The position numbers and the translations under genes were made by a program. Positions 1,754 through 21,090 of a DNA stretch of 64,000 nucleotides are shown in pieces. The stretch is from Halovivax limisalsi (GTDB lineage: Archaea; Halobacteriota; Halobacteria; Halobacteriales; Natrialbaceae), in NCBI RefSeq assembly GCF_023093535.1, contig NZ_CP095757.1, forward strand, positions 3,038,001 to 3,102,000, in the 5' to 3' direction. The notes under the pieces are model-generated. The model worked only from the letters and a program-made list of their open reading frames with translations, ran no database searches and had not been told where the DNA came from. Position 1 is the stretch's first letter, and every line of letters starts with the position of its first letter.

Positions 1754-1801
1754 TGAGCGCCGACGGCGATCCGAACGCCCCGCTGTTGGCTCGCACCTCG
1801 A

Positions 1802-4080: not shown

Positions 4081-4462
4081 GCGAACTGGTCGTACCACCC
4101 GCAACCGTCCCAAAAAAGGTACGGCCACAAAGCGGCCATTACCATCCCGCGTGGCGCGATTCGATTCTCCATCGTCGAACCGAATGTCACAAGACCGACC
4201 TGCCACCGTCGGCGTCCGGGAGACCCGATGGCCACCGAGATACAGAGGGCCCGATGGCCACCGAGATACAGAGGGCCCGATGGCCACCGAGATACAGAGG
4301 ACCCGATGGCCACCGAGATGGCGAGAACTCGATGGCCGTCGACGGATAGACAACCCCGACGGCCGCCACCGTCCAGGCCGTCCGGTTCGAGAGCGTGTAC
4401 GCGACGATTACCGCCGTCTGCCGGGCCAATCCTCAAGGGCGCATTGGTGGTAGTGGGCCGGG
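4081..4462. other. Intergenic region carrying a tandem repeat
   Basis: About 380 bp separate two divergent glycan-locus genes. No plausible gene is seen. The stretch near 4110-4140 (a run of A then alternating G/C) is lower in G+C and probably holds the promoter for the leftward pair. The middle is occupied by a 26-bp tandem repeat, described separately. Confidence 0.6.
4224..4350. repeat. 26-bp tandem direct repeat, four clear copies plus one decayed
   Basis: Copies begin with CCCGATGGCCACCGAGAT at 4224, 4250, 4276 and 4302, exactly 26 bp apart. A fifth, mutated copy starts at 4328 (CTCGATGGCC). Copies 1-3 differ only at the last base or two. The period is not a multiple of three and the tract lies between divergent genes, so it is not coding. 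It looks like a minisatellite that could vary in copy number between strains. A regulatory role is possible but nothing shows it directly. Confidence 0.9.
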
Positions 4463-5134
4463 ATGCCCGAAGAGGACGCCTTCGACTACGCCTCGGAGAT
4501 GAAGGAGTACTACCGGTCCGAGGAGGTCGCCTCGTCGTACCACGACGCCTACGGCGAGGACGGACACTGGCGCCATCGGCTGATCGCGAGTCGCGAGCGG
4601 GCGGTCGTCGAGTCGCTGGTGTCGGCGGTACCCTGCGAGACCGTCCTCGACCTGCCGACGGGTACCGGCAAGCTCGCGCCCGTCTTCGCCGAGACGGGGT
4701 CGGCGGTCCTGGCCTGCGACATCTCCGAAGCCATGCTCGGTCGCGCCGAGCGGGAGTACGCGCGGGCCGGCGTCGTCAACCGACGGTTCGCCGTCTGCGA
4801 CGCGACGTCCGTCTCCGAGGTGGTCGGGAACCGATTCGACGTTGCCGTCTGCCTCCGATTACTCCATCGCGTGCCGACGGACGTGAAACGGCGGATCCTG
4901 TCGGAACTCGCCGCGGTCGCCGACCACGTCGTGGTCTCGACCGGGATCGAATCGCCGTTTCACGCCGCCCGGCGCCGGCTTCGCTACCGGTTGCTCGGCG
5001 GTGACGAGCGCGGACACTGTTACGAGACGGCGGCAAAAACCCGCGACCTGTTCACCCGCGAGTTCGACGTTCTCGACGCGAGGTGGGTGCTTCCGGTGCT
5101 CTCGCAGGAACGGGTCTACCTGCTCCGGTCATGA
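4463..5134 (+). CDS. Class I SAM-dependent methyltransferase
   Basis: 223 aa. Motif I reads VLDLPTGTGKLAP (residues about 56-68), followed by an acidic residue after the second strand (LACDISEAML), a CDAT motif near residue 113 and a post-motif strand FDVAVCLRLLHR. This is the SAM-binding Rossmann fold of UbiE/type-11 methyltransferases. The N-terminal region rich in Tyr, Glu and Asp resembles small-molecule or sugar-modifying enzymes. It ends in ATGA overlapping the next gene, so both are in one operon within the glycan locus. A sugar or lipid-carrier substrate is the likely inference; the exact one is unknown. Confidence 0.8.
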   Translation: MPEEDAFDYASEMKEYYRSEEVASSYHDAYGEDGHWRHRLIASRERAVVESLVSAVPCETVLDLPTGTGKLAPVFAETGSAVLACDISEAMLGRAEREYARAGVVNRRFAVCDATSVSEVVGNRFDVAVCLRLLHRVPTDVKRRILSELAAVADHVVVSTGIESPFHAARRRLRYRLLGGDERGHCYETAAKTRDLFTREFDVLDARWVLPVLSQERVYLLRS

Positions 5135-6009
5135 CCGAGAGAGGCGGCGACGGATCGGTCGGTACCGACCGCGGCGACGTCGGATCGGGCCGGGACGTCA
5201 CCGGCCCCGCGATCGTCGAGCCGTTCGGTGCGCCGGGGGCGGGGAAGACGACCCTCGCTCGCGAGGTACTCGCGGCGCTGCCCGACGACGTGGCCGTCGC
5301 GCGACCGACGCTCGCGATCAACGAGTCGCTCGAGACGCCGCGACGCCAGCTCGCGAAACTCCCGTTCGTCGGTCGCGGCCTCCGCGCCGCACCGACGGAT
5401 CCGCTCCGATACGCTGCCGTCGCGGGGAGCGACCTGCGACCGTCGCTGCTGTTCAACTGGCTCTACGCGGCGGGCGCGGTCGACCGGTCGGCGCGTCGGC
5501 CGCGCGTGACGGTCTTCGACCAGGCGATAGCGCAGGCGTACTGGTCGATCGCGGTGACGGAGCCCGAGGCAGTTAAGGGGTTCGCTCGACGACGGCTGGC
5601 GGCCGCAATTCCGCCGGTCCCGTACGTTCTCGTCTGCGTTCGCGCCTCGGCGGAGGTCGTCGCGGACCGCCTCGGCGCGAGAACCGAACCGCAGAGCCGG
5701 ATCGGGGCGGCCGAGCCGGGAACGCCCACCGTGGCGGACGCGGTCGAGACCACCGAAACGGTTCGCACCGTCGCGGCCGACATCGCCGCGGAGCGACCGA
5801 CGCTATTCCTCCGCACGATCGAAGCCGACGATCGGGTCGCCCTCGACGCCGGCGTGAAACGAGTCGTTCGGACTGTCCGGCGCGAAGCGACGGACGGATC
5901 GAACCCGAGCGGTCGGAAGAAATCGGCCTCGGTGACCGAAGACGGAGAGCCCGTTCGAGGGGGCGGGGCGACCGCCTCGGGAGACGGCGGGACTGGCTAC
6001 CCCGAGTGA
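5131..6009 (+). CDS. P-loop NTPase of the glycan locus
   Basis: 292 aa. A Walker A motif (GAPGAGKTT) lies near residues 33-41, preceded by a strand IVEPF, as in nucleotide or small-molecule kinases. A later VTVFDQAIAQAYW segment may be the DxxxxQ-containing helix of thymidylate-kinase-like folds. No clear Walker B with DE is seen. The start at 5131 overlaps the stop of the methyltransferase gene (ATGA), which supports this ATG over the upstream in-frame one at 5083. Its 3' end overlaps the converging sugar-transferase gene by 13 bp. Related P-loop proteins occur in haloarchaeal and bacterial polysaccharide clusters, but the substrate is unknown. Confidence 0.65.
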   Translation: MTERGGDGSVGTDRGDVGSGRDVTGPAIVEPFGAPGAGKTTLAREVLAALPDDVAVARPTLAINESLETPRRQLAKLPFVGRGLRAAPTDPLRYAAVAGSDLRPSLLFNWLYAAGAVDRSARRPRVTVFDQAIAQAYWSIAVTEPEAVKGFARRRLAAAIPPVPYVLVCVRASAEVVADRLGARTEPQSRIGAAEPGTPTVADAVETTETVRTVAADIAAERPTLFLRTIEADDRVALDAGVKRVVRTVRREATDGSNPSGRKKSASVTEDGEPVRGGGATASGDGGTGYPE

Positions 6010-7181
6010 ACCAGGTTTCCCACGTCGCGGACGATCGCCCGGAACTGGGCCAGGACGAGGCGCACGTCCAGCCAGAACGTCCGGCTGGTGGCGTACTCCA
6101 GGTCGAGCGCGAGCTTTCGTTCGGCGTCGACGCTGGTGACGCCCCTGGTCTGGGCCAGTCCCGTCAGTCCGGGTTTGACCAGCCACCGCTTCTGCCAGGG
6201 GTGGCCGCTGGCCGCGATCTCGGCGTCGAAGACCGGTCGTTCCGGTCGCGGCCCGACGACGCTCATGTCGCCCCGAAGCACCGAGACGAGTTGCGGGAGT
6301 TCGTCCAGGTGGGTCGTCCGTAACACGCGACCGACGCGGGTCACGCGCGGGTCTTCCTCGCCGGCGTCCTCGCCGCTCAACGTCGCCCCGCGTTCGGCCT
6401 CCGCGTCCGCGACCATGCTCCGGAACTTGTAGACGGTGAACCGATCCCCGAAGGCCGCCGTCCGGGTCTGGCTGTACAGCACCGGGCCGGGCGAGTCGAG
6501 TTTGATCGCCGCCGCGATGAGACACAGAAGCGGCGCCGTCGCCAGGAGCGCGGCCCCAGCGAACAGGACGTCGAACAGCCGCTTGGCGAGCCGCGAGTAC
6601 CACGGCCAGGGGCGATGCTCGACGGTGACGAGCGAACCTGGCCCGTCGAGCGTGAGGACCCCGTCGGCGTTCGATTCGTGCGCGAGTACGGCTACTCCGC
6701 AATCCGCGGCGACCGCGAGGACGCCGAAGAACTCGCCGCGGTCGGCCTCGTCGAACGCCAGCGCGAGGGTGTCGACGGACTCGCGACGGATCAGCTGCCG
6801 GAGCCGCGTCAGGCCGCCGAGGCGGTCGATCCCGGCGATGGCGACCACGCCGTCTGTCGGCGTGCGGATGAGGGCTCCGTCCGCGTCGAGGGGGAGCACC
6901 GAGCGCCGAGCGATCCGCTCCGACGGACCGACGCCGACGCGGTTCGACTCGACGTCCGGATCGGCGGTCTCCCTCCCGGCCGAACGGGACGCCGGATCGT
7001 CGAGTCGAGGAGAGACGAATCCGACGGGCTCGACGGGGAGGTCGTCGGCGACCGTCTCGATCAATCCGGCGTCGGTTCCGACGACGAGCGCCCGGGATGG
7101 CGTCGGCGTCTCGGCCCCTCGGCCGACCGCGGACGCGGCGGCACCAGCCGACCGCACTCGCGAGGCCAGGCGTCGAAGCAT
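5997..7181 (-). CDS. Polyprenyl-phosphate sugar-1-phosphate transferase (bacterial sugar transferase family)
   Basis: 394 aa. The C-terminal 200 residues are the catalytic domain: [14 protein letters not shown] begins the single re-entrant membrane helix, followed by [36 protein letters not shown] and KPGLTGLAQ. All are hallmarks of the enzymes that start glycan assembly by moving a sugar phosphate onto a lipid carrier. The N-terminal 190 residues look like a soluble nucleotide-binding (CoA-binding-like) domain; the usual four N-terminal membrane helices of WbaP are absent. ATG at 7181 was preferred to the upstream in-frame start at 7235. It probably initiates the polysaccharide built by the neighbouring transferases. 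Confidence 0.88.
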
Positions 7182-7391
7182 CGTCGAAGCCTGGCCCGCG
7201 CGGACAATAATGACCGACTCCCGTTTCGGGACCAACCCGCCACTACCCGATCGCGGTCGACCGACGCCGCGGTGAAAGTCGCCACAACGGTCCAGAGTTC
7301 GAGTCTCCGCGCCCGACGCGTCGCGGTAACACGCGATTGGGCGCCCGATTCGAAGGCAGGATCACTCGCCGCGCCCATCGACACGCGGGCC

Positions 7392-8168
7392 TCACCGGCC
7401 CGAAGCGGCCAGCACCCGACCGACGGACGGTCGCGTCGTGAGCCACCAGCCGGCCGCGGCGCCGATGGTGCCGACGAACGCGAGGAGTCCGTCCGTCGTC
7501 GCGCCCGTGATCACGAGCGCGATCGTACCCAGAACCGCCGCGAGACCCATCGAACGGCGCGGATCAGCCGCGAGGGCGGTTCGCGCGACGCCCAGATAGC
7601 CGAGCCCAACCGCGACGGAGGCGAGGACGTCGACCAGAAAGTGGACGCCGAGGGCGAGCCGGGAGAGCGCGACGGTCGAGACGAGCAGCGACGCCAGGAT
7701 CGCCCGGGTCCGCGGTCGCGGTCGATCGCACCAGTACGCGAGCGCCCCCCAGAGGATCGTCGCGGCCATCGCGTGCCCGCTCGGAAAGCCGTACCCGTCG
7801 CGGACCGTCGCCTGCAAAGCCGGCGGCGGGCGGGGAAGACCGAGAACGGTCTTGAGGATCAGCGTCAGCGCGAGCCCGCCGGTGACGACGCCGACGACGA
7901 ACGCCGTCCGCGGCCGCAGGAGCGAACGGCGACCGACCGCGGATTCGCGAGCCCCGCGATCGGTCGTTCGAGCATCCCGGGAGGGTTCGCGGAGAGGAGA
8001 ATTGCCCCCGTCGGAGAGCGCATCGCGGACATCCACGAGGACGACCGCGGCGAGGACGCCGGCGACGACGGGGAGGTCGCCCGGGAGCGCGGCCAGTTCG
8101 AACAGCGGAGTCGACCACTCGGGCAGGACGGCTCTGATCGCCTCGGTGACGCCGATTCCTCGGCTCAT
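7392..8168 (-). CDS. PAP2-family membrane phosphatase
   Basis: 258 aa with about six membrane helices. All three phosphatase motifs are present: K-x6-RP (KTVLGLPRP, residues 106-114), PSGH (129-132) and S-R-x5-H-x3-D (SRLALGVHFLVD, 169-180). The enzyme removes phosphate from a lipid phosphate or pyrophosphate at the membrane. Next to a polyprenyl-linked glycan locus, recycling of the polyprenyl carrier is the simplest inference. The ATG at 8168 gives an N-terminus just before the first helix. The in-frame extension to 8264 is rich in Arg and looks non-coding. Confidence 0.85.
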   Translation of the reverse strand: MSRGIGVTEAIRAVLPEWSTPLFELAALPGDLPVVAGVLAAVVLVDVRDALSDGGNSPLREPSRDARTTDRGARESAVGRRSLLRPRTAFVVGVVTGGLALTLILKTVLGLPRPPPALQATVRDGYGFPSGHAMAATILWGALAYWCDRPRPRTRAILASLLVSTVALSRLALGVHFLVDVLASVAVGLGYLGVARTALAADPRRSMGLAAVLGTIALVITGATTDGLLAFVGTIGAAAGWWLTTRPSVGRVLAASGR

Positions 8169-8507
8169 CCGCCCACCACTACGCCGCCGAGTGCCATCAA
8201 TCGTCGGCCGAGGTTCGCAACGAGAGGGACGACGATACAGGACGAGACGCACGACGATTCGCAATGAGACGGGTGGTTACCGGGCGACGACGAGGTTCGG
8301 AGCAAATCTGCTGGTCGTTCCGACCACCGAAATCTGTCGACTCGTCGCTCTCGAGGTACTGCCGTCAGTGGCATCGTCGGCATCGCTCACCGGTTGACGC
8401 CCCGGTTTCGACTGCACCTCAGCGAACAACGCCGTGAGCGTTGACCCGGTAACCGATCGAGATCGCGGTGAGCGTTCGGAATCGACTGTGCGGGGTGTTC
8501 TGGAGAT

Positions 8508-8520
8508 GACTTTTAATGTG
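8508..8520 (+). promoter_or_regulatory. Putative TATA box of the methyltransferase gene
   Basis: CTTTTAATG at about 8510 sits in a local AT-rich dip 35-40 bp before the start codons at 8544 (GTG) and 8550 (ATG). This is consistent with a short leader. Confidence 0.5.
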
Positions 8521-8549
8521 ACGAGGTTCGAAGAAAGGAACCAGTGGCG

Positions 8550-9230
8550 ATGAGCGTTCAACAGGAATTCGATCGATGGGCGACGTCGGGGAGAGATCGT
8601 GAGATGGAAGACGAGCACTGGCACACGGCAAAACAGGCTCTCGCGATGATGCCGGTGGAGGCTGGCGATACCATCCTGGATCTCGGTACCGGTTCGGGGT
8701 ACGCGCTGCGAGCGCTCGGCGAGATACACGACCTCGCCCGGGGCGTTGGGCTCGATGGGAGTCCGGAAATGACGACGAACGCGCGCGAGTACGCGCAAGA
8801 TGACTCTCTGGATTTCACGGTCGCCGACTTCCATCACCTCCCGTTCTCCGACGACAGTGTCGACCACGTCTGGAGCATGGAGGCGTTCTTCTTCGCGCAG
8901 GAGCCGGTCGAGATGCTCTCGGAAATCCGACGGGTGCTCCGCCCCGGCGGGACGTTCTTCTGTGCGGTGAACTTCTTCGAGGAATCCGAACAATCCCATC
9001 AGTGGCAGGAGCGGATCGATCTCCCGATGTACCTCTGGAGCCGACAGGAGTATCGAACCCTGTTCCGCGAGGCCGGATTGAGCGTCGCCGTACAGGACAC
9101 GATTCCGGACGAAGAAATCGAGATTCCTCCCGAGAACCAATTCCCGACCGACGAATGGGAGACTCGCGAAGCGATGGTCGATCGCTATCGGACGTGGGGG
9201 ACGCTGCTGACCGTCGGTGTCGCACCCTGA
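8550..9230 (+). CDS. Class I SAM-dependent methyltransferase (type 11)
   Basis: 226 aa. SAM-binding motif I is ILDLGTGSGYALRAL (residues about 43-57), the acidic residue after strand 2 is in GVGLDGSPEM, motif II is in FTVADFHHLPF, and the LRPGG turn follows strand 4. Residues 100-226 carry an unusual number of aromatic and acidic residues (MEAFFFAQEP, NFFEESEQ), as in halophilic enzymes. Base composition is a little lower in G+C than the neighbours. A GTG six bases upstream (8544) is an alternative start. It stands alone; the substrate is unknown. Confidence 0.85.
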   Translation: MSVQQEFDRWATSGRDREMEDEHWHTAKQALAMMPVEAGDTILDLGTGSGYALRALGEIHDLARGVGLDGSPEMTTNAREYAQDDSLDFTVADFHHLPFSDDSVDHVWSMEAFFFAQEPVEMLSEIRRVLRPGGTFFCAVNFFEESEQSHQWQERIDLPMYLWSRQEYRTLFREAGLSVAVQDTIPDEEIEIPPENQFPTDEWETREAMVDRYRTWGTLLTVGVAP

Positions 9231-9864
9231 CAGTTACTCCACGCTGAAGCGTGAGGATTCCGTTGGGATCGTGTGGTTTTGACGTGATCCGTTTCGTTGG
9301 TGGGAAGCACTCGCCGTCAAGGTCGAACAGATGCGACGGTCGACAGCCCACGAAGTGGCGGTGAGCATTCGTTACTGGCGTTCCCCGGGACGAACTGGAC
9401 GGAGATCAAATCCGACCTCCAAGACGATCCGGTCGCATGGAAGAGTTCGGCCGTCGAGAACGGACGAATCACCTCCTCGCGGTTCGATTCGGTGGCCCAA
9501 TCCTGAACCGCTTCCGACTCGATACGGCCGCGAAAGCGCTCTACCCCGAGCGGTTCGGTGACCAGCCGGCCTACGATGGTGGCGTTCGCCCTGAAATCTC
9601 GGACGGAGAGCATTGTTCGGCCGCCAGCGGTGCGCAAACGTAATCCCCGGGATGTAAATCAACGGACGCGTCTCAGGTTTCGCTGTCTATTGGTTGCGAA
9701 TTGTTCCGAAGATCGATGCTCCGAATCTGTTCCTAATTTAGATATGTTTCGATAATATTCACCGGAATTGTGTCGAATCCGCCACTGTGATTTTGTTTCA
9801 AAAGTCGAGATGGGTTAGATAGGAACGCTTTAACCCCTCCTCTGAGTAGCCGCGCCTGTCCACG
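9231..9864. other. Long intergenic region, no recognisable gene
   Basis: 634 bp. The first 40 bases hold an IS-end-like hairpin (separate entry). From 9300 to 9650 short open frames exist but none resembles a known protein. From 9650 to 9860 the DNA becomes clearly AT-rich and serves as the promoter region of the purine permease; a TATA-like GCTTTAACC lies near 9827. Confidence 0.5.
9240..9253 (+). repeat. Possible right-end remnant of an IS200/IS605 (IS1341-type) element
   Basis: CACGCTGAAGCGTG folds into a perfect 5-bp stem with a TGAA loop, followed by AGGATTCC. Haloarchaeal IS1341-type elements commonly end in very similar hairpins just after the tnpB-like gene. No tnpB reading frame precedes it here; the upstream gene is a methyltransferase. 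So at most a solo end is left. This rests on memory of the family's ends. Confidence 0.35.
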
Positions 9865-11340
9865 ATGTCAACAGGGTCGACGGACGGGGACGGACTCGGG
9901 GCGCGCATCGCCGACTACTTCGATTTCGCGGAGTACGGAACCAATCTCAAAACGGAGACCATCGCCGGCGTGACGACGTTCCTGGCGATGGCGTACATCA
10001 TCGTCGTGAACCCGTCGATCATCGCGCCGGCGATCATCGGGGAGTATCCCCCGATCGAACCGGGGACGACGACGACCATCAACGGGGAGATCTTCACCTA
10101 CGGCGAGGTGGTGCAGATGCTCACCGTCGTGACGATACTCGCGTCGGTGATCGCCATCCTCGTGATGGCGCTGTACGCCAACCGGCCGTTCGGCCTGGCG
10201 CCGGGGATGGGGCTGAACGCCTTCTTCACGTTCACCGTCGTCCTCTTGCTGGGCGTCCCGTGGCAGGTCGCGCTGGCCGCGGTGTTCGTCGAGGGGATCG
10301 TCTTCATCGTCCTCACTGCCGTCGGCGCCCGTCGGTACATCATCGAACTGTTCCCCGAACCCGTGAAGTTCGCCGTCGGTGCCGGGATCGGTGTCTTCCT
10401 CCTCTTCCTCGGATTCCAGGAGATACAGGTGGTCACCGGTGATCCCGAGACGCTCGTCACGCTCGGGAACGTCCTCGAATCGCCGGTCGCCGCGGCCGGC
10501 CTCGCCGGACTCCTCCTGACGCTCCTGCTGTACGCCCGGGGCGTCACCGGCTCGATCGTCATCGGGATCCTGCTGACCGCCGCCGGCGCCTGGCTCGCGA
10601 CCATCGCCGGATTCGTCGAGCGCGGGACGATCACGCCGAGCGAGGGAGACGTCGTGACGAGCGTCCAGTACGACTTCACGCCGCTGGTCTACGAATTCGT
10701 CGACGGACTCGGCATGATCACGGAAGACCCGCTCGTCTTCCTGCTGGTCGTGTTCACGTTCTTCTTCGTCGACTTCTTCGACACCGCCGGGACGCTCATC
10801 GGCGTCTCCCAGATCGGTGACTTCCTCGACGAGGACGGAAATCTGCCGGATATCGACGAGCCGCTAATGGCCGACGCCGTCGGCACGACCGCCGGCGCCG
10901 TGATGGGCACCTCGACGGTGACGACGTACATCGAGTCCTCGACCGGCGTCGAGGAAGGCGGGCGAACCGGCTTCACCGCGCTCGTCGTCGGCGTGCTGTT
11001 CGCCCTCTCGCTCGTCCTTGTCCCCGTCGTGACGGCGATTCCGACCTTCGCCACCTACATCGCGCTCGTCGTCGTCGGGATCATCATGCTCCAGGGCGTC
11101 GCCGACATCGACTGGCAGGACCCGTCGTGGGCGATCGCCGCGGGACTCACCATCACGATCATGCCGCTCACCGCGTCGATCGCGAACGGCCTCGCCGCCG
11201 GAATCATCAGCTACCCGTTCATCAAGCTCGCCACGGGCGAACGCCGGGACGTCTCGGCCGGGCAGTGGGTCCTCGCGGTCGCGTTCATCGTCTACTTCGC
11301 CGTCTACTTCAGCGTCCAGGCCGGGGACTTCGCCTTCTAA
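9865..11340 (+). CDS. NCS2-family purine (guanine/hypoxanthine-type) permease
   Basis: 491 aa, about 13-14 membrane segments. The N-terminal TTFLAMAYIIVVNP motif and the later GLNAFFTFTVV, VKFAVGAGIGVFLLFLG and FFVDFFDTAGTLIGV segments are those of the AzgA-like branch of the NCS2 superfamily, which imports adenine, guanine or hypoxanthine with protons. The last includes the conserved acidic residue of helix 8. Length is close to the usual 430-490. The ATG at 9865 follows an AT-rich promoter by about 35 bp. The glutaredoxin-like gene follows 83 bp later on the same strand and may be co-transcribed. Confidence 0.9.
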   Translation: MSTGSTDGDGLGARIADYFDFAEYGTNLKTETIAGVTTFLAMAYIIVVNPSIIAPAIIGEYPPIEPGTTTTINGEIFTYGEVVQMLTVVTILASVIAILVMALYANRPFGLAPGMGLNAFFTFTVVLLLGVPWQVALAAVFVEGIVFIVLTAVGARRYIIELFPEPVKFAVGAGIGVFLLFLGFQEIQVVTGDPETLVTLGNVLESPVAAAGLAGLLLTLLLYARGVTGSIVIGILLTAAGAWLATIAGFVERGTITPSEGDVVTSVQYDFTPLVYEFVDGLGMITEDPLVFLLVVFTFFFVDFFDTAGTLIGVSQIGDFLDEDGNLPDIDEPLMADAVGTTAGAVMGTSTVTTYIESSTGVEEGGRTGFTALVVGVLFALSLVLVPVVTAIPTFATYIALVVVGIIMLQGVADIDWQDPSWAIAAGLTITIMPLTASIANGLAAGIISYPFIKLATGERRDVSAGQWVLAVAFIVYFAVYFSVQAGDFAF

Positions 11341-11423
11341 CCGGCGACCGTCGATCCGGCGATTTCGACGATCGGGTCTCCCCGACCGACGCCCTCTTTC
11401 GCCTCCAGGACGTACGCGCCGCT

Positions 11424-11675
11424 ATGTCCGACATCACGTTCTACGAACTCCCGGGCTGTCCCTTCTGTGCGAACGTCCGCTCGAAACTCGACGAACTCGG
11501 GCTCGACTACGAGACGGTCGAAGTTCCTGCGGCCCACCACGAACGCACTCGCGTGCGGGACGTGAGCGGACAGACCGGCGTTCCGGTCATCACGGACGAG
11601 GCCCACGGCGTCGAGGGGATGGCCGAGAGCGACGAGATCGTCGCCTACCTGGAGGAGACGTACGAGAAGGCCTGA
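11424..11675 (+). CDS. Glutaredoxin-like / GST N-terminal domain protein
   Basis: 83 aa, a complete small thioredoxin fold. The redox motif CPFC lies at residues 12-15 after a TFYELPGC entry, the cis-Pro loop is TGVPVI, and the C-terminal helix starts ESDEIVAYLEE, as in GrxC or the N-terminal domain of glutathione transferases. It would reduce protein or small-thiol disulfides (gamma-glutamylcysteine is the main haloarchaeal thiol). The frame upstream of this ATG is Arg-rich read-through from the permease gene and was discarded. Confidence 0.82.
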   Translation: MSDITFYELPGCPFCANVRSKLDELGLDYETVEVPAAHHERTRVRDVSGQTGVPVITDEAHGVEGMAESDEIVAYLEETYEKA

Positions 11676-11694
11676 ACAGTACTCTCGCGGTTAT

Positions 11695-14601
11695 TCACCG
11701 GTACCAGCGATCGAGCACCCGTTCACGAAGAACGAGGAGCGACGGCAGTACCGTCAGGCTCGCGACGAACGCGAGGACGATACTCAACCCCGTCACGAGG
11801 CCGAACCGCTGGAGTGGCGGCGAGAGCGCCAGTGCGAGGACGCCGAAGCCGGCGGCGGTCGTCGCGGCGCTCCCGAGGAGGGCGCCGCCGGTGCCCTGTA
11901 CCGTCGCCCGGACCGACTCTTCAACGACGTCGTCCGACGACTGACCCGCCGATCGGTCCACGCCAGGTCGACGATCGGTCTCGTTCCGTCGGCGCGCACG
12001 TTCCTCGCTCCCCCGCACTGCCGCGTCCCGACGCGCCGCGACTTCCCAGACGAATCGCTCGCCCACGTGGATGCTGTAGTCGACCCCGAGTCCGATCGCC
12101 AGGCTCGTCATCACGACCGTCTCTGTGTTGAACGGGACGGACAGGAGCGCCATCGCGCCGAGGAGCGACGCGAGCGCGGCGACCACGGGGACGAGCGTGA
12201 GCACGCCGAGCGCGAGCGAGCGGTGGCGAACCCAGTAGAGGACGGTAAGCAAGACGAGCACGACGACGACCGTGACGGCGAACGCCCGGACGAACGTCTC
12301 GAGCAACGCGTCTTGCACAGCGGCCGTGACGACGGGGCCGCCGGTCGCGACGACCGAAATCGGCGAAGCGGCCGAGCCGGTCGCTCGGTCCCTCGACGCC
12401 GCGGACGAGTCGCCGGATTCGCGAGTGACTGGCACTCCGGTTTCCGACGACTCGGCGGCTGCGCGTTCGATCGCCGCCGCGAACGCCTCCGCGTCGGCGG
12501 TCACGGCCTGGACCGACGCGTCGCTGCGGACCGAGAGGGTGAGTCTGGCCGACTCGTACGATCCGTCGGCCGTTCGATGGAGGACCGACGACGCCCGCTC
12601 GGGAGCCGCCTCGAAGACGAGCGCGTAGAGCCCGGCGACGTCCGCGTCCGGCAGCCCGTCACCCTCCGTGTCCCGTTCGTGAAGGGCCGCTGCGACGGTT
12701 TCGTTTTCCGACGCGACGGACGCGACGAACGTGGAAGGACCTTCCATCGCCACCGATCCGTCCGCGCGGACGTCGATCGTCTCCGCCGAGCGGAGCGAAT
12801 CCGACGCGCTCGACCCGCCGTCGATACCAGCACCGCCACTGACGCCGGTGTCGCCACCGACCGCAGTTGCCGCGGATTCGATCCCGTCGAACAGCGCAGG
12901 ATCCGTCACGTTTCCGCGTATCAGGAACTGCACCTGCGAGCCCGAACGCCGGTCCTGAAAGTTGCTACTGAGATAAGCGACTTCCTCGCGAACGGTGTAG
13001 GTATCCGGCTCCAGCGGGTCCGGGAGCGACGCCGTCCACTCGGGTGGATCCTCGGGGAGGAAATCCGTGCGATCGAACTCGGTGTCGAGGTCAGTCGCCG
13101 CTGTGGCCCCGAACGCGGCGACGAGGACGGCGAGGACGACGACGGCGACGGGGGCCCTCCGAGCGAGTACGCTCACCGCGGAGAGAGCGCGGTCGCCGGC
13201 GGATCCGTCCGTCCCGAGCGGCGGCTGCCGTCGAGAGCGACCGAATCGGCGCTCGAGTAGGTCGTCGACGGTCACCTTCAGCGCGGGCAGGAAGACGCCG
13301 AACGCGACGAACGTCGCGACGATGCCCGCCGCGCTCAAAATCGCGAAGTGCTCGATCGCCGGCAACGGGCTGAGCGCGTTCGCGAGGAAGCCGACCCCGG
13401 TCGAGATCGTCGCCGCCACCAGCGCGAGGACCACCCCCGTGAGACCGATTCGCATCCCGTTCGCGGGCGACTCGCGACCGTCGTCGGTCCGCTCGTCCGT
13501 GGTGCGTTCCAGCGAGCCCGACCTGGCCTCCCGATAGCGCATCACCACGTGCAGGGAGTAATCGATCGAGAGCCCGACGAGCAAGAACGGGATCGCGACG
13601 AGCATCGAGCCGCCGGGAATCGCGAGCCACCCCTGGATCCCCGCGAACCAGCAAAGCACGATCACGATCCCGACCAGCGAGAGCACCACGTCGACGAGGT
13701 CGCGATAGGCGACCGCGAGGATAGCGAGGACGAGAGCCAGCGCGACGGGCGTGATGATCGCGAAGCTGTCCCCGACGGCGTTCGCGCTGGCGGCGTCGAC
13801 GATGCCGGCCCCGAAAACGAAGCCGCCCGCGAACCGCTCCTCGAACGCAGACTCGATCTCGAACTGGGCGTCGTGAGCCAGCGCCTCGCCGTCGGCGCCG
13901 GTCGCGTCGGTGTGAAACGCGAACGTAATCCGCGACTCCGACCTGGTCGATCCGGGCTCGTACGACGTCGGGAGGAAGGCGTACGGATCGCCGATCGCGT
14001 TCCCGGCCGAGTCCGACGCGTTTCCGCTCGATACGGGGTCGTTCCCCGTTGATCCGGAGTCATTCCCGGTCGGCGCGTCGGAGGCGAGGACGTCCGCGAG
14101 GAGGGATTCGACGGCCGCCGGCGACCGCCGTTCGAGCGCCCGAATCTGTTGGTCGAGCGTCGGCGTCCGACCGGCTGCGTCGACCTCACCGGAACCGCCG
14201 CCACCGGAGCGATCCTCCATCGCGGCGGCGGTGGCGACGACGTTCTCGATGCCCTGGAACCGCCGATCGGTGAGCGTCTCGTTCACCGTCGGCCGCTCGG
14301 AGAGCTCGCGCTGCAGCCGCAGACTCTCGAGTAGCGAATCCCGCGTCAACACGTCACCGTCGTCCGATCGAACCACGAGTTGCGTGACGATCGCGTTCTC
14401 GGACCGGTACGTCGCGTCGATCCGGTCGAGCGCCGCGGTCGACTCCGTCTCGACGGCGAACTCGTCGGCGTCGCCCGCGGGCTCCGCACCGAACACTGCT
14501 CCAGCACCGATCGCCGCCGTACAGAGCAACACGGTCACCAGGACGAGAAGACGGTTCTCGACGATCCAGGCCGCGTACCGAGCCGATCGCGAGCCGGTCA
14601 T
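11695..14601 (-). CDS. RND/MMPL-family transporter with sterol-sensing-like repeats
   Basis: 968 aa with the RND layout: one N-terminal helix, a large extracytoplasmic domain (about residues 40-290), five or six helices, then the same arrangement repeated (second outer domain about 500-740). The conserved charged motif at the start of each second helix is GLSIDYSLHV in the first half and GLGVDYSIHV in the second; the Asp is the proton-relay residue. Haloarchaeal members are proposed lipid or hydrophobic-compound exporters, by analogy with MmpL/HpnN. ATG at 14601 is used; a GTG three codons upstream is possible. It converges on the glutaredoxin-like gene with a 19-bp gap. Confidence 0.88.
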   Translation of the reverse strand: MTGSRSARYAAWIVENRLLVLVTVLLCTAAIGAGAVFGAEPAGDADEFAVETESTAALDRIDATYRSENAIVTQLVVRSDDGDVLTRDSLLESLRLQRELSERPTVNETLTDRRFQGIENVVATAAAMEDRSGGGGSGEVDAAGRTPTLDQQIRALERRSPAAVESLLADVLASDAPTGNDSGSTGNDPVSSGNASDSAGNAIGDPYAFLPTSYEPGSTRSESRITFAFHTDATGADGEALAHDAQFEIESAFEERFAGGFVFGAGIVDAASANAVGDSFAIITPVALALVLAILAVAYRDLVDVVLSLVGIVIVLCWFAGIQGWLAIPGGSMLVAIPFLLVGLSIDYSLHVVMRYREARSGSLERTTDERTDDGRESPANGMRIGLTGVVLALVAATISTGVGFLANALSPLPAIEHFAILSAAGIVATFVAFGVFLPALKVTVDDLLERRFGRSRRQPPLGTDGSAGDRALSAVSVLARRAPVAVVVLAVLVAAFGATAATDLDTEFDRTDFLPEDPPEWTASLPDPLEPDTYTVREEVAYLSSNFQDRRSGSQVQFLIRGNVTDPALFDGIESAATAVGGDTGVSGGAGIDGGSSASDSLRSAETIDVRADGSVAMEGPSTFVASVASENETVAAALHERDTEGDGLPDADVAGLYALVFEAAPERASSVLHRTADGSYESARLTLSVRSDASVQAVTADAEAFAAAIERAAAESSETGVPVTRESGDSSAASRDRATGSAASPISVVATGGPVVTAAVQDALLETFVRAFAVTVVVVLVLLTVLYWVRHRSLALGVLTLVPVVAALASLLGAMALLSVPFNTETVVMTSLAIGLGVDYSIHVGERFVWEVAARRDAAVRGSEERARRRNETDRRPGVDRSAGQSSDDVVEESVRATVQGTGGALLGSAATTAAGFGVLALALSPPLQRFGLVTGLSIVLAFVASLTVLPSLLVLRERVLDRWYR

Positions 14602-14888
14602 CCGAACCACCAGCGGCGACCTTCGCCCGCCCGTCCTCGTCGATCACACCAGGTCGTCCGGGTGAGCCACCCCCCGCAGCCCTCCGTTCGCGCCGTCGTC
14701 CGACGACGCAAACCGATGATCCGCCGCGGTCTGTCGCGCCCAGCGCGATACGGCTGCCTTCGATCGCTCGAATTGATCTGCCGGAATTGGCTGATAGGGT
14801 CTCCCATCACGTCAGTCTCGGTGATAGTCGGATAAGGCTCGTCGGAGGTGTCCAACCGAATGGGAAAACCGGTTTCGACCGGGCCAGG

Positions 14889-15158
14889 TTAGCGCCAGTA
14901 GAGTGCGTAACTGATGACGACGAAGCCGGCCCCAATAAAGAGGCTCTCGATCAGTAGTCCGGCGGTGAGGCCGATGCCGACTGCGTGGTGGAGGACGCCG
15001 ACGAGCGCCGTCCCGAGTGTAATGATCAGGAGGCCGACGGCGAAGAACTGGAGGCCGTCTATCCCGGTCCGTCGGTAGGCGCGATAGGCCAGGAGCGAAA
15101 CGGCACTCCCGAGGACGAGGAGGCCGATTTTCACGACGACGAGTACGGTTTCTAGCAT
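14889..15158 (-). CDS. Small three-helix membrane protein
   Basis: 89 aa, almost entirely three hydrophobic segments (VVKIGLLVLGSAVSLLAY; FFAVGLLIITLGTALVGVL; GLTAGLLIESLFIGAGFVV) with an RAYRRTG loop on one side. I recognise the pattern of a conserved haloarchaeal small membrane protein that sits beside a winged-helix regulator, but no biochemical function is known. It starts 2 bp after the stop of the regulator gene, so the two are one operon. The membrane protein may be a partner or sensor for the regulator. Confidence 0.7.
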   Translation of the reverse strand: MLETVLVVVKIGLLVLGSAVSLLAYRAYRRTGIDGLQFFAVGLLIITLGTALVGVLHHAVGIGLTAGLLIESLFIGAGFVVISYALYWR

Positions 15159-15160
15159 CG

Positions 15161-15583
15161 TTATCCCTCCCGCGACCGATCCTCGTCGGTCGAACGATCC
15201 CGGTTCGATTCCGATTTCATGCCCGCCCAGAACGCGGCCATCCGATCGGTCGCTTCGGCGGGCGGGCGCCGTACCTCCAGTTCGAACTCGTCGTCGTCAT
15301 CGATCTCGATGGTGATGCCGGTGACGTCGCGCTCGTAGAGGGTCGCGTTCGGTCCGTCGCGGCGAATCTCCGTGTATTCCCGGACGAGATCCGCCTCCCT
15401 GAGACCGTCCAGCTTCCGGTAGAGGGTCGACCGTGGGAGTTCGGTCTCAGCCCGAAGGTCGGCGGCGGATTTCGGGCTGTCGAGCAGGGCGAGCAGTCGT
15501 CGGGAGTCGCGGTCCTCGAGGCTCGCGAGGACGGCCTCCAGCGACGGCTCCCCGTCGGCGTCGTCTCCTGGGTCGCGCGTCAT
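15161..15583 (-). CDS. Winged-helix (ArsR/TrmB-like) transcriptional regulator
   Basis: 140 aa. Residues about 15-85 form a winged HTH: LEDRDSRRLLALLDSPKSAADL, then the recognition helix LPRSTLYRKLDGL, then a wing. The C-terminal part has a strongly acidic beta stretch (TIEIDDDDEFELEV). I chose ATG at 15583; ATG at 15658 is also in frame and would add 25 residues. It lies first in an operon with a three-helix membrane protein, a common haloarchaeal arrangement. Target genes are unknown; autoregulation is plausible. Confidence 0.75.
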   Translation of the reverse strand: MTRDPGDDADGEPSLEAVLASLEDRDSRRLLALLDSPKSAADLRAETELPRSTLYRKLDGLREADLVREYTEIRRDGPNATLYERDVTGITIEIDDDDEFELEVRRPPAEATDRMAAFWAGMKSESNRDRSTDEDRSREG

Positions 15584-16210
15584 CCGTCGGGAGGGATCAC
15601 GATGGCGTGAAGTACCCGGCACGGGCCAGCGGTCCCAGCCGGTCGGTGTTTCTGTCATGTGCGTCGTCACCGGTCGGTCGCCTGTCCGCGATATCGAACC
15701 CGTCCGGGTTGGGTCCATCGATGTCGATCGGCGGGGACGCGGTCGAGTCACGATTCGGCGGTGCGCTCACACGATCGGTGCACGCTCGACCGATGGGGAA
15801 CGGGGCCTAAAGCGACCCCGTCCAATCCCAATTCGCTGGACAACCTGCCCGCGCGATCGGGATCGCGCCCTCGGGTCCGTCGAAGCGCCAACAGAGGCAA
15901 AACGGTGTCCGCTCGAGCCCCTCGTAGAGGTCGTCCGAGAGCTACGTCAATCCGGTGTCGCAGGCGACGGTGACGACCGTCTCGTCCGGGCGCATCGACG
16001 GTAACTCGACTATCGGCGTGTCGCCAATGGCCGCTAGCGTGGTCCTCGTCGGCTCGGCGTCCGTTCGGGACGGGTCCTGGAATCGACTCATGCCGGTCGC
16101 GTAATCGGCCGCTACCCCGAACGTCTCGACTCGTCCTGGTAACAGCTACAAAGACAGTCGCCGCGGGGGTCGAACGAGATTGGCGAAAACGCAGGAGTCA
16201 GTCCCGTCCC
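15584..16210. other. Intergenic region holding a decayed gene
   Basis: 627 bp between two leftward genes. Open frames are short and Arg/Ser-rich. The only recognisable content is the cysteine-synthase remnant at 15905-16091. The sequence from 15584 to 15900 shows nothing I can name. Confidence 0.5.
15905..16091 (-). pseudogene. Remnant of a cysteine synthase-family gene, internally deleted and interrupted
   Basis: Read leftward from ATG 16091, the frame gives a 49-residue product ending at TAG 15942-15944. Its middle reads LAAIGDTPIVELPS, like the N-terminal IGNTPLVRL signature of PLP-dependent cysteine synthases (CysK/CysM). It then runs straight into DETVVTVACDTGLT, like the family's C-terminal end. 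After the stop the same frame continues LSDDLYEGLE, as expected for that C-terminus, with the stop where a Tyr is usual. So about 250 central residues, including the PLP lysine, are missing. This is inference from remembered family motifs; an alignment would settle it. Confidence 0.55.
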
Positions 16211-17179
16211 TCAGGCCGCTTCTTCGCGATCGGCGCGTTCACGAATGAGCGAGCGCAGTTCCGCGGCGTCCCCGACGGCCTCCAGTTCCTCGTGTTCGAC
16301 GAGGGCCGTGCCGTCGACCGACTCTTGCTTGGCGCGTTCGACGACGTAGACGGAGCGCGTTCCGGCGACGTGGCCGATCGAGGACATGATCTTCGCGCGC
16401 TTTTCGGCCGCCTTCGTAAAGGCGGAGTGGCCGGTCAGGACCGGCTCGTCGTCGTCCCCTTCGTCAGTACTGACCGCCTTGAACGGCGATCGGTTCGTCG
16501 GGTGGACGGTGAAGCCGGTTCGGACCAGCGTCGCGACGACGTCTTCGTCGTCCGGGTCAGCCGCAGGATCCTCCGGCGTCGGTTCGGCGTCGTGGACGTC
16601 GTCGGCGCCGTCGAGGACGTCCACCGGGCTGGTCAGCTCGTCCTCGAACAGCTCTTCGAGCGCCATCGCCACCTCGACGGAGGCGTTCATCCCGTCCTCG
16701 TACTTCGAGACCGTCCGGCGGGAGACGCCCAATTCCGAGGCCAGCCGACCGAGACTCCAGTCGCGCTTCTCGCGCTCGTCGGCCAGCAGATCGCCGTCGA
16801 TGTTGACGTAGAGACCGCCCGGAGCCGCGTAGATCAACGGCGGGACGTTCTCGATGAAGAGGTTGTACGCCGTGTCCGGGCTGAATACGGGCACGCCGTG
16901 ACGGAAGTAGACCACGTCGGGTTTGAGATCCTCGTCGCGACTGCGAAGGCCGATCACGAGCGGCGTTGCCTGTAGATGGGTCCCCAGGCGGCGCATCTCG
17001 TGGCCGGTCGCCTCGTTGAACGCGTCGATGTTACCGAGGATCTTCACGAGGATGACGTTCGACCCCCGGCGGGCCGCCACGTCGAAGCTCTTCGGTCGAA
17101 TCGCACACCGGTCACTCACCACGAAGCCTGCGTCTTCGAGCATCGCAGTGACGTTTCCCACCAGTGCGGACCGAGACAT
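16211..17179 (-). CDS. Archaeal HTH-type transcriptional regulator (MF_00584-like)
   Basis: 322 aa. The N-terminal 130 residues form an archaea-specific domain ([42 protein letters not shown]). A Cro/CI-type HTH lies near residues 125-180 with [23 protein letters not shown], and a C-terminal domain follows an acidic linker. This architecture matches the conserved putative HTH regulator found in most archaea. Its target is not established. It is divergent from tiaS across 364 bp that contain a 21-bp palindrome array. The frame is open far upstream through that array, but ATG 17179 gives the usual length. Confidence 0.85.
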
Positions 17180-17543
17180 ACACGGGCCTAGCCATTCATC
17201 GGATAAATGCTTTTCCCCCCGGTACGCAACGCCTTCTGGTGGTTCACGGATTCGAGACGCCGACGAGAGACAGTCCGCTCGGTGCGACCGTTCGGTGACG
17301 AAGAACTCGCTACCGGTCGAACCATCGGCCTGGAGATCCACGTGACCGCCCGGGTGACGTGCACGGCTGTCCGGGTGACGTGCACGGCTGTCCGGGTGAC
17401 GTGCACGGCCGTCCGGATGATGTGCACGGCCGCCCGGGAGGTGTGCACGACCGCCCGAGGCGAGGTCGACCCCCGATGCGAAGTTGGCCGTCGACGCGAG
17501 TTTCGACCGAAACGCGTACCCTCTGACGCTCCCAACTCCGACC
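17180..17543. other. Divergent intergenic region with repeat array
   Basis: 364 bp between the HTH regulator and tiaS. The first 40 bp (ATCGGATAAATGC, on the regulator side) are AT-richer and probably contain that gene's promoter. The centre holds a 21-bp repeat array. No gene is supported, although frames stay open on both strands because the period is a multiple of three. Confidence 0.6.
17348..17460. repeat. 21-bp tandem array of CGTGCACG palindromes, five copies
   Basis: Units start at 17348, 17369, 17390, 17411 and 17432, with a partial sixth at 17453. The consensus is GYCCGGGTGACGTGCACGGCY. Each unit carries the palindrome GTGCAC; in the first three it is flanked to CGTGCACG. Palindrome centres are exactly 21 bp apart, two helical turns, so they face the same side of DNA. 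Copies four and five are more diverged. The location between divergent genes suggests an operator array, perhaps for the adjacent HTH regulator; this is inference. Confidence 0.85.
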
Positions 17544-18860
17544 ATGACCATCGTCGGGCTCGACGACACGGATTCCCGCGAGAACGGGATGTGTACCACG
17601 TACGTGGGCGCCCGACTCGCCGAGCGGCTCCGGGACGTCGGAACGGTCGACCGCCTCCTGCTCGTCAGGCTCAATCCGGCCGTCGAGTACAAGACGCGGG
17701 GCAACGCCGCGGTCGCCGTCCAGACGTCCGTCGAGCCCGAACGCGCGTTCGAGCTCGCCGCGGAACTGATCGACTCGCTCGCGCTCGCGTCGGAGCCGAA
17801 CACGAACCCCGGCGTCGTCGTCGCCCCGCACCGCGTGCACCCGGACGGCGTCGAGACGGACGGGACCGGACCAGCGGCCGACCGATCGATCCCGGACGAC
17901 GTGAGCGCCTGGACCGTGCAGGCGATCCGAGGCCACTGTACGATCGCCGACGCCGAGCGACGGATCGAGTCGGCGGGCTACCGACAGGACGCGAGGGGAA
18001 ACGGCCGCGGGCGCATCGGCGCGCTCGCCGCCGTCGGAGCACAGGCCACCCTCGCCGAGTGGACGTACGAGCGCATCGCCTACCGGACAAAATCGCGCCG
18101 GGGGACCGATCGGTCGGTCGACGCGGAGTCCGTGTTCGACGCCGCGAACGCGGCGTACCCGACCGTCTGGGACACCGTCGACCGCGGCAGCGGCGAACTG
18201 GTGTGCGTCCCGCGAACGCCCGGCCCGGTCCTGGTCGGGATTCGCGGGGACGATCCCGCCGCGGTCGATCGGGTTCTCGACCGCATCGAGGCCGAGCCGG
18301 TCGCGGCGAGCGAGCGGTTCCTGACGAACCAGGGGACCGACGTCCACCTCCGCGAGGGGCGACTCGGGGCGCTCGAAGACGGCCGCGCCTATCGCGTCGA
18401 CGGCGTCGTCGACGGCGACCCGGAGACGCGCCGCGGCGGGCACGTCTTCGTTCCGATCGTCGACCAGCACGGCGAGAATCGAACCGAGTGCGCGGCGTTC
18501 GAACCGACGAAGCGATTCCGCGACCGGGTGCGGGCGCTCCGGCCCGGCGACCGCGTCACCGTCTGCGGCGAGCGATCGCGGGGGACGATCAAGCTGGAGA
18601 AGTTCGCCGTTCGCGAACTCGAATCCCGCGAGCTGGTGACCCCGACGTGTCCGTCCTGCGATCGGACAATGGAGAGCGCCGGCCGCGACCAGGGCTATCG
18701 CTGTCGCGACTGCGGGACGAGCGCCGACGGACGCGAGCGGGTCCCGATCGACCGGGCGCTCGAGTCCGGCTGGTACGAAGTGCCCCCGCGCGCCAGGCGA
18801 CACGTCGCCAAACCGCTCGTCCGCGGCGGGTTCGACGGTCCCACGCATCCCGAACGGTGA
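17544..18860 (+). CDS. tiaS: tRNA(Ile2) 2-agmatinylcytidine synthetase
   Basis: 438 aa. TiaS attaches agmatine to C34 of tRNA-Ile2 so that it reads AUA in archaea. The N-terminus [20 protein letters not shown] is the family's kinase-like signature (GLDDTDS). A ferredoxin-like and a central domain follow. An OB-fold lies near residues 285-365, and a C-terminal zinc ribbon has the pattern CPSC-x12-CRDC near residues 370-390. Length is normal. ATG 17544 begins exactly at the family N-terminus. The Sm-like and small genes that follow run in the opposite direction. Confidence 0.93.
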
Positions 18861-20884: not shown

Positions 20885-20905
20885 TGGGACCGCTGAGAGT
20901 CGAAC
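20885..20905 (-). repeat. Duplicate of the 3' end of tRNA-Pro (att-like direct repeat)
   Basis: The 21 bases at 20885-20905 are identical to 21020-21040, the discriminator base, acceptor strand and T-arm part of the tRNA-Pro gene. Such partial copies arise when an integrase inserts an element into a tRNA 3' end. Only 114 bp now separate the copies, so any element has been almost fully deleted. Confidence 0.75.
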
Positions 20906-21019
20906 AGGTGCAAGACGGTCGCCCTCGCTCCCGTCGGTCGCTCGGCCGCTGCGACTTGCATGTTCGATCTCATCGCCATCCAGAGTCCTGTCGCTCGCGA
21001 GGATGCTCGCGACAGAATA

Positions 21020-21090
21020 TGGGACCGCTGAGAGTCGAACTCAGGTCCTACGGACCCCATCCGCAGAGGATACCACTACCCCACGGTCCC
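21020..21090 (-). tRNA. tRNA-Pro (anticodon GGG)
   Basis: Read leftward, the gene folds as a complete cloverleaf. The acceptor stem is GGGACCG/CGGTCCC with discriminator A. The D-arm contains GGTAGTGGTA, the anticodon stem TGCGG/CCGTA encloses a seven-base loop ATGGGGT (anticodon GGG, codon CCC), and the T-arm is CTGAG/CTCAG with loop TTCGACT. There is no intron and CCA is not encoded. It lies 85 bp downstream of cbf5. Confidence 0.93.

Follow-up and report, generated by a model that had tools for sequence, protein, structure and literature searches.

In Escherichia coli, the tRNA gene at tyrT is followed by tandem units of about 178 bp, in each of which some 19 bp of the tRNA 3' end recur; an RNA is released from these units. 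The part of a tRNA gene that stretches from the T-loop to the 3' end is also a known kind of recombinase target, and clean site-specific excision of an element from such a target leaves one att copy, not two. Tyrosine-recombinase proviruses at haloarchaeal tRNA genes, for instance SNJ2, use the tRNA 3' end in this way and leave a partial copy of it. In those passages of a published account that deal with Haloquadratum prophages, partial tRNA duplications, with repeats of 22 and 43 bp of the tRNA end, are tied to prophage integration (PMC3119063). Here, we describe a haloarchaeal tRNA-end repeat that forms part of a conserved hairpin unit, and we discuss what this unit might do and how it might have spread.

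The repeat was found in a window of 64,000 nucleotides, bases 3038001-3102000 of a 3.89-Mb single-contig genome. A 21-bp sequence, TGGGACCGCTGAGAGTCGAAC, occurs there twice, at 20885-20905 and 21020-21040, with 100% identity, a spacing of 135 and 114 bp between the copies; on the tRNA strand, it runs from G53 of tRNA-Pro(GGG) to the last base of this tRNA. The initial annotation had reported that 21 bp of the tRNA 3' end are exactly duplicated 135 bp away and that the interior holds a perfect TCGCGAG/CTCGCGA stem; we find the two copies identical and locate the stem at 20995-21001 and 21006-21012. In the minimum-energy fold of the tRNA strand, this stem is replaced by a longer one with internal GA/GA mismatches, which we refer to as H1. 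Next comes a second hairpin, H2, in which the copy of tRNA positions 53-73 forms the 3' arm and a partial complement of this copy the 5' arm (Table 1). The predicted fold energy of the whole unit is -64.7 kcal/mol.

Table 1. The tRNA-Pro(GGG) gene and the parts of the unit behind it (window coordinates)
Feature	Position	Strand	Basis
tRNA-Pro(GGG), host tRNA	21020-21090	minus	ARAGORN; Rfam RF00005, 48.1 bits
Complete 135-nt unit (H1 and H2, closing in the tRNA tail copy)	20885-21019	minus	sequence, fold, homologous units
H1 hairpin with GA/GA internal mismatches, directly behind the tRNA	20986-21017	minus	fold
H2 hairpin	20885-20981	minus	fold; match of covariance model R1 at 20889-20975, 67.7 bits
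H2 5' arm GAGATCGAACA, imperfect reverse complement of the tRNA T-loop and 3' T-stem	20961-20971	minus	sequence; co-variation with the host tRNA (118 elements)
Conserved internal-loop strand AGTCGCAGC	20948-20956	minus	
Variable GC-rich tip of H2 (long type)	20921-20947	minus	
Conserved internal-loop strand GACCGTCT	20913-20920	minus	
21-nt copy of tRNA positions 53-73, the H2 3' arm	20885-20905	minus	sequence; 5' limit at 52-53 over 134 tRNAs

A DNA search of the same genome and 60 relatives revealed homologous units at tRNA-Pro(GGG) in three other genera (G014, 87% identity; G025, 83%; G006, 78%), with matches spanning most of the region from tRNA to copy. In four congeners, by this search and by their downstream sequences, the best match is restricted to the tRNA and adjoining bases, and no copy of the unit lies behind tRNA-Pro(GGG). 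Three loci (L021, L025 and L032) carry other unit-like types downstream of this tRNA, with a shorter copy of about 7-15 nt that ends in GGTCCCA or GGTTCCA; some of these are hairpins with a matching 5' arm. Parts of the interior of the window unit also gave many weaker matches elsewhere. ARAGORN found a tRNA gene (Leu, His, Asn, Arg, Pro, Gly, Val or Ser) in 17 of 20 stretches with such matches, and the remaining three have a tRNA-Asn-like tail upstream of the unit, which is repeated inside it. The common core of these sequences is AGTCGCAGC ... GACCGTCT; 3' of it lies the tail of the respective tRNA, and 5' of it the partial reverse complement of that tail.

The extent of this arrangement within one genome is apparent from a count that involves no model. 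A copy of at least 17 of the last 20 nt of a tRNA lies within 500 bp of 21 of the 41 tRNAs of the genome that holds the window, compared with 18 of 1640 mismatched pairs. Exact 20/20 copies no more than 500 bp downstream were found for 15 of 41 tRNAs and for 2 of 1640 wrong-tRNA tails and, because of this difference, the own-tail repeats are not due to chance. Some of the 20 tRNAs that have no such close copy still possess an H1-like start or a matching 5' arm. R1, a covariance model built from 13 short-type hairpins, gives a similar picture: in the window, the unit scores 67.7 bits and the next best match 12.7, and the match to the unit begins 45 nt behind tRNA-Pro(GGG) on the same strand, with a tail copy of 21/21. 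Genome-wide, 25 of the 32 matches at E ≤ 0.01 lie within 400 bp downstream of a tRNA and on its strand, behind 19 of the 41 tRNAs, a zone that makes up 0.2% of the genome by strand. Three of the other seven belong to an array at the far end of a provirus at tRNA-Tyr, and two more, at a distance of 2 kb behind tRNA-Phe, are units in which the tRNA-Phe tail can still be recognised at the end (17/20 and 16/20); the last two, at 1836232 and 2774179, do not match any tRNA tail and are probably spurious. Eight matches to a short GC-rich word of the unit, spaced by 70 bp, form a 70-bp tandem array at 909817-910326.

Among relatives, R1 finds matches at E ≤ 0.001 in 36 of 41 genomes (the own genome and 40 others) and none in G037, G044, G045, G046 and G050; Haloferax gibbonsii has 8 matches at this threshold, Natrinema zhouii 11, Haloarcula amylolytica 18 and Halorhabdus salina 32. 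The best locus of a genome lies behind a tRNA, on the same strand, in 28 of 30 genomes, the two exceptions being the displaced tRNA-Tyr array and a match close to a contig end. At E ≤ 1e-5, matches occur in 31 of 196 genomes drawn from the phylum, all of them from the order of the window (the own genome, the same family or the same order), and two order members among the genomes listed from this draw have none. Likewise, a search of genome contigs for the core pattern yielded at least 80 loci, and 27 of the 80 listed, all in haloarchaeal records, match R1 at E ≤ 1e-4. The window unit is one member of an order-wide family of haloarchaeal units, each located behind a tRNA on its strand, which we refer to as tRNA-tail units; that this family is real seems to us hardly open to question.

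These findings bear directly on the proposal of the initial annotation that the locus is the scar of an excised element. One part of this proposal stands, as tRNA-Pro(GGG) is a provirus attachment site in relatives. We took in the 20 kb downstream of this tRNA in 18 relatives, including two congeners with matches, and in line with the forecast that occupied sites would be found, five of them hold homologues of a single tyrosine recombinase; the other 13 loci hold no homologue of the six recombinases queried, though recombinases of other kinds may occur there. At three of the five, the end of the recombinase gene is followed after 49-58 bp by a copy of 13 bp of the tRNA end, at a distance of 18.4-19.1 kb from tRNA-Pro(GGG). 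The initial annotation had proposed to look for an island flanked by the 21-bp repeat; the provirus copies at tRNA-Pro(GGG) in these three relatives match the tRNA end over 13 bp, not 21. At one locus (L435), about 18.4 kb from tRNA-Pro(GGG), the tRNA-adjacent sequence restarts behind the far provirus repeat, with 37 identical bases at once, which suggests two elements integrated in tandem.

The genome under study itself holds a provirus-like element of about 17.4 kb at tRNA-Tyr (3288766-3306176; 767-18177 of locus L059), with a 13-bp tRNA repeat at both ends, a tyrosine recombinase at 17073-18110 of that locus (Pfam Phage_int_SAM_1 above and Phage_integrase below the cut-off), a protein with an archaeal pilin N-terminus and a DUF7845 protein. 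Behind its far end lies an array of four tRNA-tail units that still close in tRNA-Tyr tails. As this provirus separates tRNA-Tyr from its array, the array is separate from the provirus, which most simply entered between the two.

A scar or decayed remnant of a tyrosine-recombinase element, or a mini-element integrated in trans, would fit the copied part of the tRNA, which is of the recombinase-target kind, and the presence of proviruses at tRNA-Pro(GGG) in relatives. It is at odds with the 13-bp length of the provirus repeats, with the presence of copies at 21 of 41 tRNAs of a single genome and with a 5' arm that is matched to the host tRNA; furthermore, none of the 80 loci listed from at least 80 with the core pattern in viral contigs has an R1 match at E ≤ 0.001, and no homologue of the six queried recombinases is encoded within the 64-kb window. 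We therefore consider this explanation mostly refuted and give it very little weight. Specifically, we reject an excision scar at tRNA-Pro(GGG), as the interior is a conserved hairpin unit common to many tRNAs and genera and not the remnant of a lost element. It also follows, as a caution, that short tRNA-end repeats in haloarchaea need not signal lost proviruses, because such a repeat can be the copy within a hairpin unit, as it is here. The 21-bp copy might also be taken for the target duplication of a MITE or insertion-sequence derivative, although here the inverted repeat consists of H2, one arm of which is the copy.

Proviruses would enter the picture differently if the units were kept as spare attachment sites, such that incoming elements use the copies and spare the tRNA. 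An arrangement behind tRNA-Phe is in keeping with this idea: about 1.77 kb (3673384-3675152; 885-2653 of locus L060), comprising a degenerate unit and a gene for a 466-aa ATPase (Pfam ATPase_2, DUF234), lie in a cassette-like manner between two exact 20-nt copies of the tail. The provirus at tRNA-Tyr, however, sits at the tRNA itself and not in the array behind it, a decoy would gain little since integrases restore the tRNA anyway, and H1 and the core would be left unexplained. We regard this explanation as improbable.

A larger set comprised 195 tRNA loci; it is not a fair sample, since most were chosen for a nearby R1 match. Copies of at least 16 of 20 nt were found at 135 of these loci, which together have 200 units; at 125 of the 135, the length of the first unit falls in the range of 97-160 nt, and tandem arrays comprise up to five units. 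An H1 of the strict GA/GA pattern is present in 87 units (84 distinct) and missing in 113. The start of the copy is sharp: over 134 tRNAs, the fraction of matches rises from 0.34 at position 50 to 0.51 at 51, 0.81 at 52 and 0.94 at 53 (control at 51, 52 and 53: 0.40, 0.69 and 0.49) and then stays at 0.90-1.0 up to position 72, where positions from 58 on are uninformative because they served to pick the copies. The lower value of 0.76 at position 73 is attributed to gene-end calls that are off by one base. Past the tRNA end, agreement with the sequence that follows the last copy drops to 0.37-0.63 and stays above the control at most positions (for instance, 0.48 versus 0.24 at +5), as would be expected wherever more degenerate units come next.

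In an alignment of 115 distinct sequences, 94.2% of the cells of the stems are paired, compared with 71.6% after shuffling, and both sides have changed in 276 cells, compared with 86 in shuffles, with such changes at 12 of 12 pairs; this alignment was fitted to the structure and is therefore biased toward it. Sliding the pairing partner by 1-3 columns abolishes the signal. In a count with fixed anchors, at the stem positions that adjoin the conserved words, 602 of 708 cells from 118 elements are Watson-Crick pairs. To judge from these comparisons, the structure of the unit is under constraint.

Moreover, the unit is fitted to its host tRNA. The 5' arm fits its own tRNA better than a swapped one at position 57 (97% versus 52%), 59 (88 versus 60), 62 (73 versus 46), 63 (59 versus 37) and 64 (47 versus 27), with little difference at 60 and 61 and none from 65 onward; positions 54-56 and 58 are uninformative here because the test required a T-loop-like word in both arms. 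When the tail of a unit is swapped for that of another tRNA, the predicted fold is on average 3.5 kcal/mol less favourable, and the own tail gives the lower energy in 139 of 173 units. For the distal tail alone (positions 61-73, unanchored), there was almost no specificity, with a mean score of 11.8 versus 11.1 and the own tail above the mean of the others in 117 of 200 units. Where tRNA and copy differ, the arm follows the tRNA in 46 cases, the copy in five and neither in five, and no arm was found in 21 units; many of the 46 represent one recurrent insertion, and a fresh mutation of the copy would look alike. In seven of 200 units, which belong to Pro, Phe, Thr and Arg tRNAs, and in two more Phe units, the copy has the same extra C in the T-loop word (TTCR-C-AATC). 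It may be a subfamily marker or a functional change (L049, L080, L101, L167, L385 and, in L060, 2786 and 2908).

How, then, did the units come to lie behind so many tRNAs? The plainest answer is that tRNA ends were duplicated locally in tandem, with neither a function nor any movement involved. This would agree with the tandem units of single arrays, which can be identical (maximum core identity of 1.0 for the same tRNA and genome) or nearly so (as behind tRNA-Leu(tag)). The cores, however, are common to different tRNAs and genera and were thus not made anew at each tRNA, so that local duplication as the sole cause is refuted and has the least to recommend it of all the explanations discussed here. 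At one tRNA-Leu(tag) locus (L122), two almost identical tandem units of about 175 nt have an extra long first part and apparently stem from a recent duplication. A CRISPR-like array was likewise rejected: the interiors are homologous across arrays and are not unrelated spacers.

A weightier alternative, which we hold to be doubtful on balance and yet a serious contender, is a palindromic satellite that spreads between tRNAs at the DNA level and needs no RNA function. The T-loop word TTCRAATC, common to most tRNAs here, would provide microhomology for template switching, and outward copying from it would rewrite both arms to the new host tRNA. This would account for pairs of units such as those at tRNA-His and tRNA-Ala in G018, which share a 42-nt core with three differences while both arms are unlike, or those at tRNA-Glu and tRNA-Cys in the own genome, which likewise have a common core. 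G.U pairs are few in the stems (26 of 1297 cells), and the same one-base T-loop insertion at four kinds of tRNA gives the impression that the unit carries a piece of its right arm along. Apparently, cores are transferred or converted from one tRNA to another, with the arms becoming fitted to the tRNA newly occupied, and a template switch at the T-loop word would produce such movement with rewriting of the arms.

However, a satellite gives no account of why the copy stops at the mature tRNA 3' end, where direct DNA copying should pass position 73, nor of the fixed orientation and H1-H2 order. Furthermore, when the nearest core was determined for 197 units, it belonged to the same tRNA in another genome in 62 cases, to another tRNA in another genome in 112, to the same tRNA in the same genome in 16 and to another tRNA in the same genome in seven. 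The same tRNA in other genomes is over-represented (62 of 197, from 642 of 19,306 pairs), so that much of the pattern is inheritance in place, and the 112 cases are weak evidence for a satellite because pairs of that kind form the majority. On average, core identity amounts to 0.645 between units at the same tRNA in different genomes and to 0.607 where both tRNA and genome differ. Inheritance in place and sharing across tRNAs thus both occur.

We favour, tentatively and with slightly less than even confidence, a reading in which the unit acts at the RNA level, be it as a cassette for processing or termination or as a tRNA-linked small RNA. Transcription would run on from the tRNA through the unit, which would form the 3' trailer of the pre-tRNA, and 3' processing, putatively by RNase Z, behind the tRNA and again behind the copy would free a two-hairpin RNA of about 120 nt. 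Pairing of the copy with the 5' arm would keep this arm, which is antisense to the T-loop and 3' T-stem, off the tRNA itself. We infer such read-through transcription, cleavage at both borders and an RNA-level role from the location of the units on the same strand close behind the tRNA, the own-tail copies, the copy start at 52-53, the covariation and the fit between arm and tRNA. We prefer this reading to a pure DNA satellite because the unit is bounded by the mature tRNA 3' end on one side and by the copy of this end on the other, as an RNA freed by tRNA 3' processing would be.

The pairing itself offers a test of strand, as selection on an RNA of the tRNA strand should tolerate G.U and not A.C. 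G.U exceeds A.C by 22 to 9 in the anchored count, by 13 to 6 in the anchored count for H1, by 26 to 21 in alignment A3 and by 146 to 127 in the unanchored outer arm; among the matched comparisons for the outer arm, one favours G.U (76 of 808 versus 26 of 649) and the other does the opposite (70 of 897 for G.U versus 101 of 1198 for A.C). These counts lean weakly toward RNA, two of the four hardly so, and the sequences are related. A clear terminator role is not indicated, since own tRNAs followed by a copy and those without one hardly differ in the T content behind them (3.9 versus 4.0 of 10). Against an action at the RNA level, it can be held that a cruciform or a DNA-templated palindrome would yield covariation too, that the units are patchy, as in the four congeners without a copy at tRNA-Pro(GGG) and the 20 of 41 own tRNAs without a close one, and that the strict-pattern H1 is missing in 113 of 200 units. 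It is a more speculative thought, and rather an unlikely one, that the units constitute a class of element not described so far, namely hairpin cassettes that settle at the 3' ends of many kinds of tRNA gene, rewrite both arms to the host, live as trailer RNAs with the tRNA processing sites as their borders and possibly move via these RNAs.

If half of the tRNA genes in a haloarchaeon carry such self-matched cassettes, and its relatives across the order do so too, haloarchaeal tRNA transcription units hold, apart from the tRNA, another conserved structured RNA or else a selfish element specific to tRNAs. This would bear on tRNA 3' maturation, on the tRNA-derived small RNAs studied in Haloferax and on the use of tRNA 3' ends as integration sites.

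The tRNA-tail unit may be an undescribed kind of genetic element. When the window stretch and eight tRNA loci with units were compared with Rfam 15, only tRNA passed its gathering score, the weaker matches staying far below theirs. RF00391, which we take to be rtT RNA, gave no match in the window stretch at E ≤ 10 or in the eight tRNA loci at E ≤ 1. We found no description of the units in those parts of the open-licence literature that were covered, where absence proves little, and the passages covered of papers on Haloferax RNAs and tRNA genes make no mention of them (PMC2584109, PMC4983044, PMC6490895). The repeats described for Haloquadratum are likewise tRNA-end repeats at haloarchaeal tRNAs but, in the passages that treat them, they appear as prophage-related and not as tRNA-matched hairpin units (PMC3119063). 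The proviruses observed here differ from the unit in having a 13-bp repeat, a recombinase gene and 17-19 kb between the copies; in the unit, the repeat measures 21 bp, and the 114 bp enclosed hold a conserved hairpin and no gene. The nearest likeness to the unit that is known to us is tyrT/rtT of E. coli. Like the tyrT units, those of haloarchaea hold the tRNA 3' end and lie behind the tRNA; to our knowledge, however, a tRNA-matched 5' arm and a two-hairpin plan are not part of tyrT, and while tyrT is one locus in a bacterium, tRNA-tail units are found at about half of the tRNAs of the genome studied here and in most of the sampled genomes of an archaeal order.
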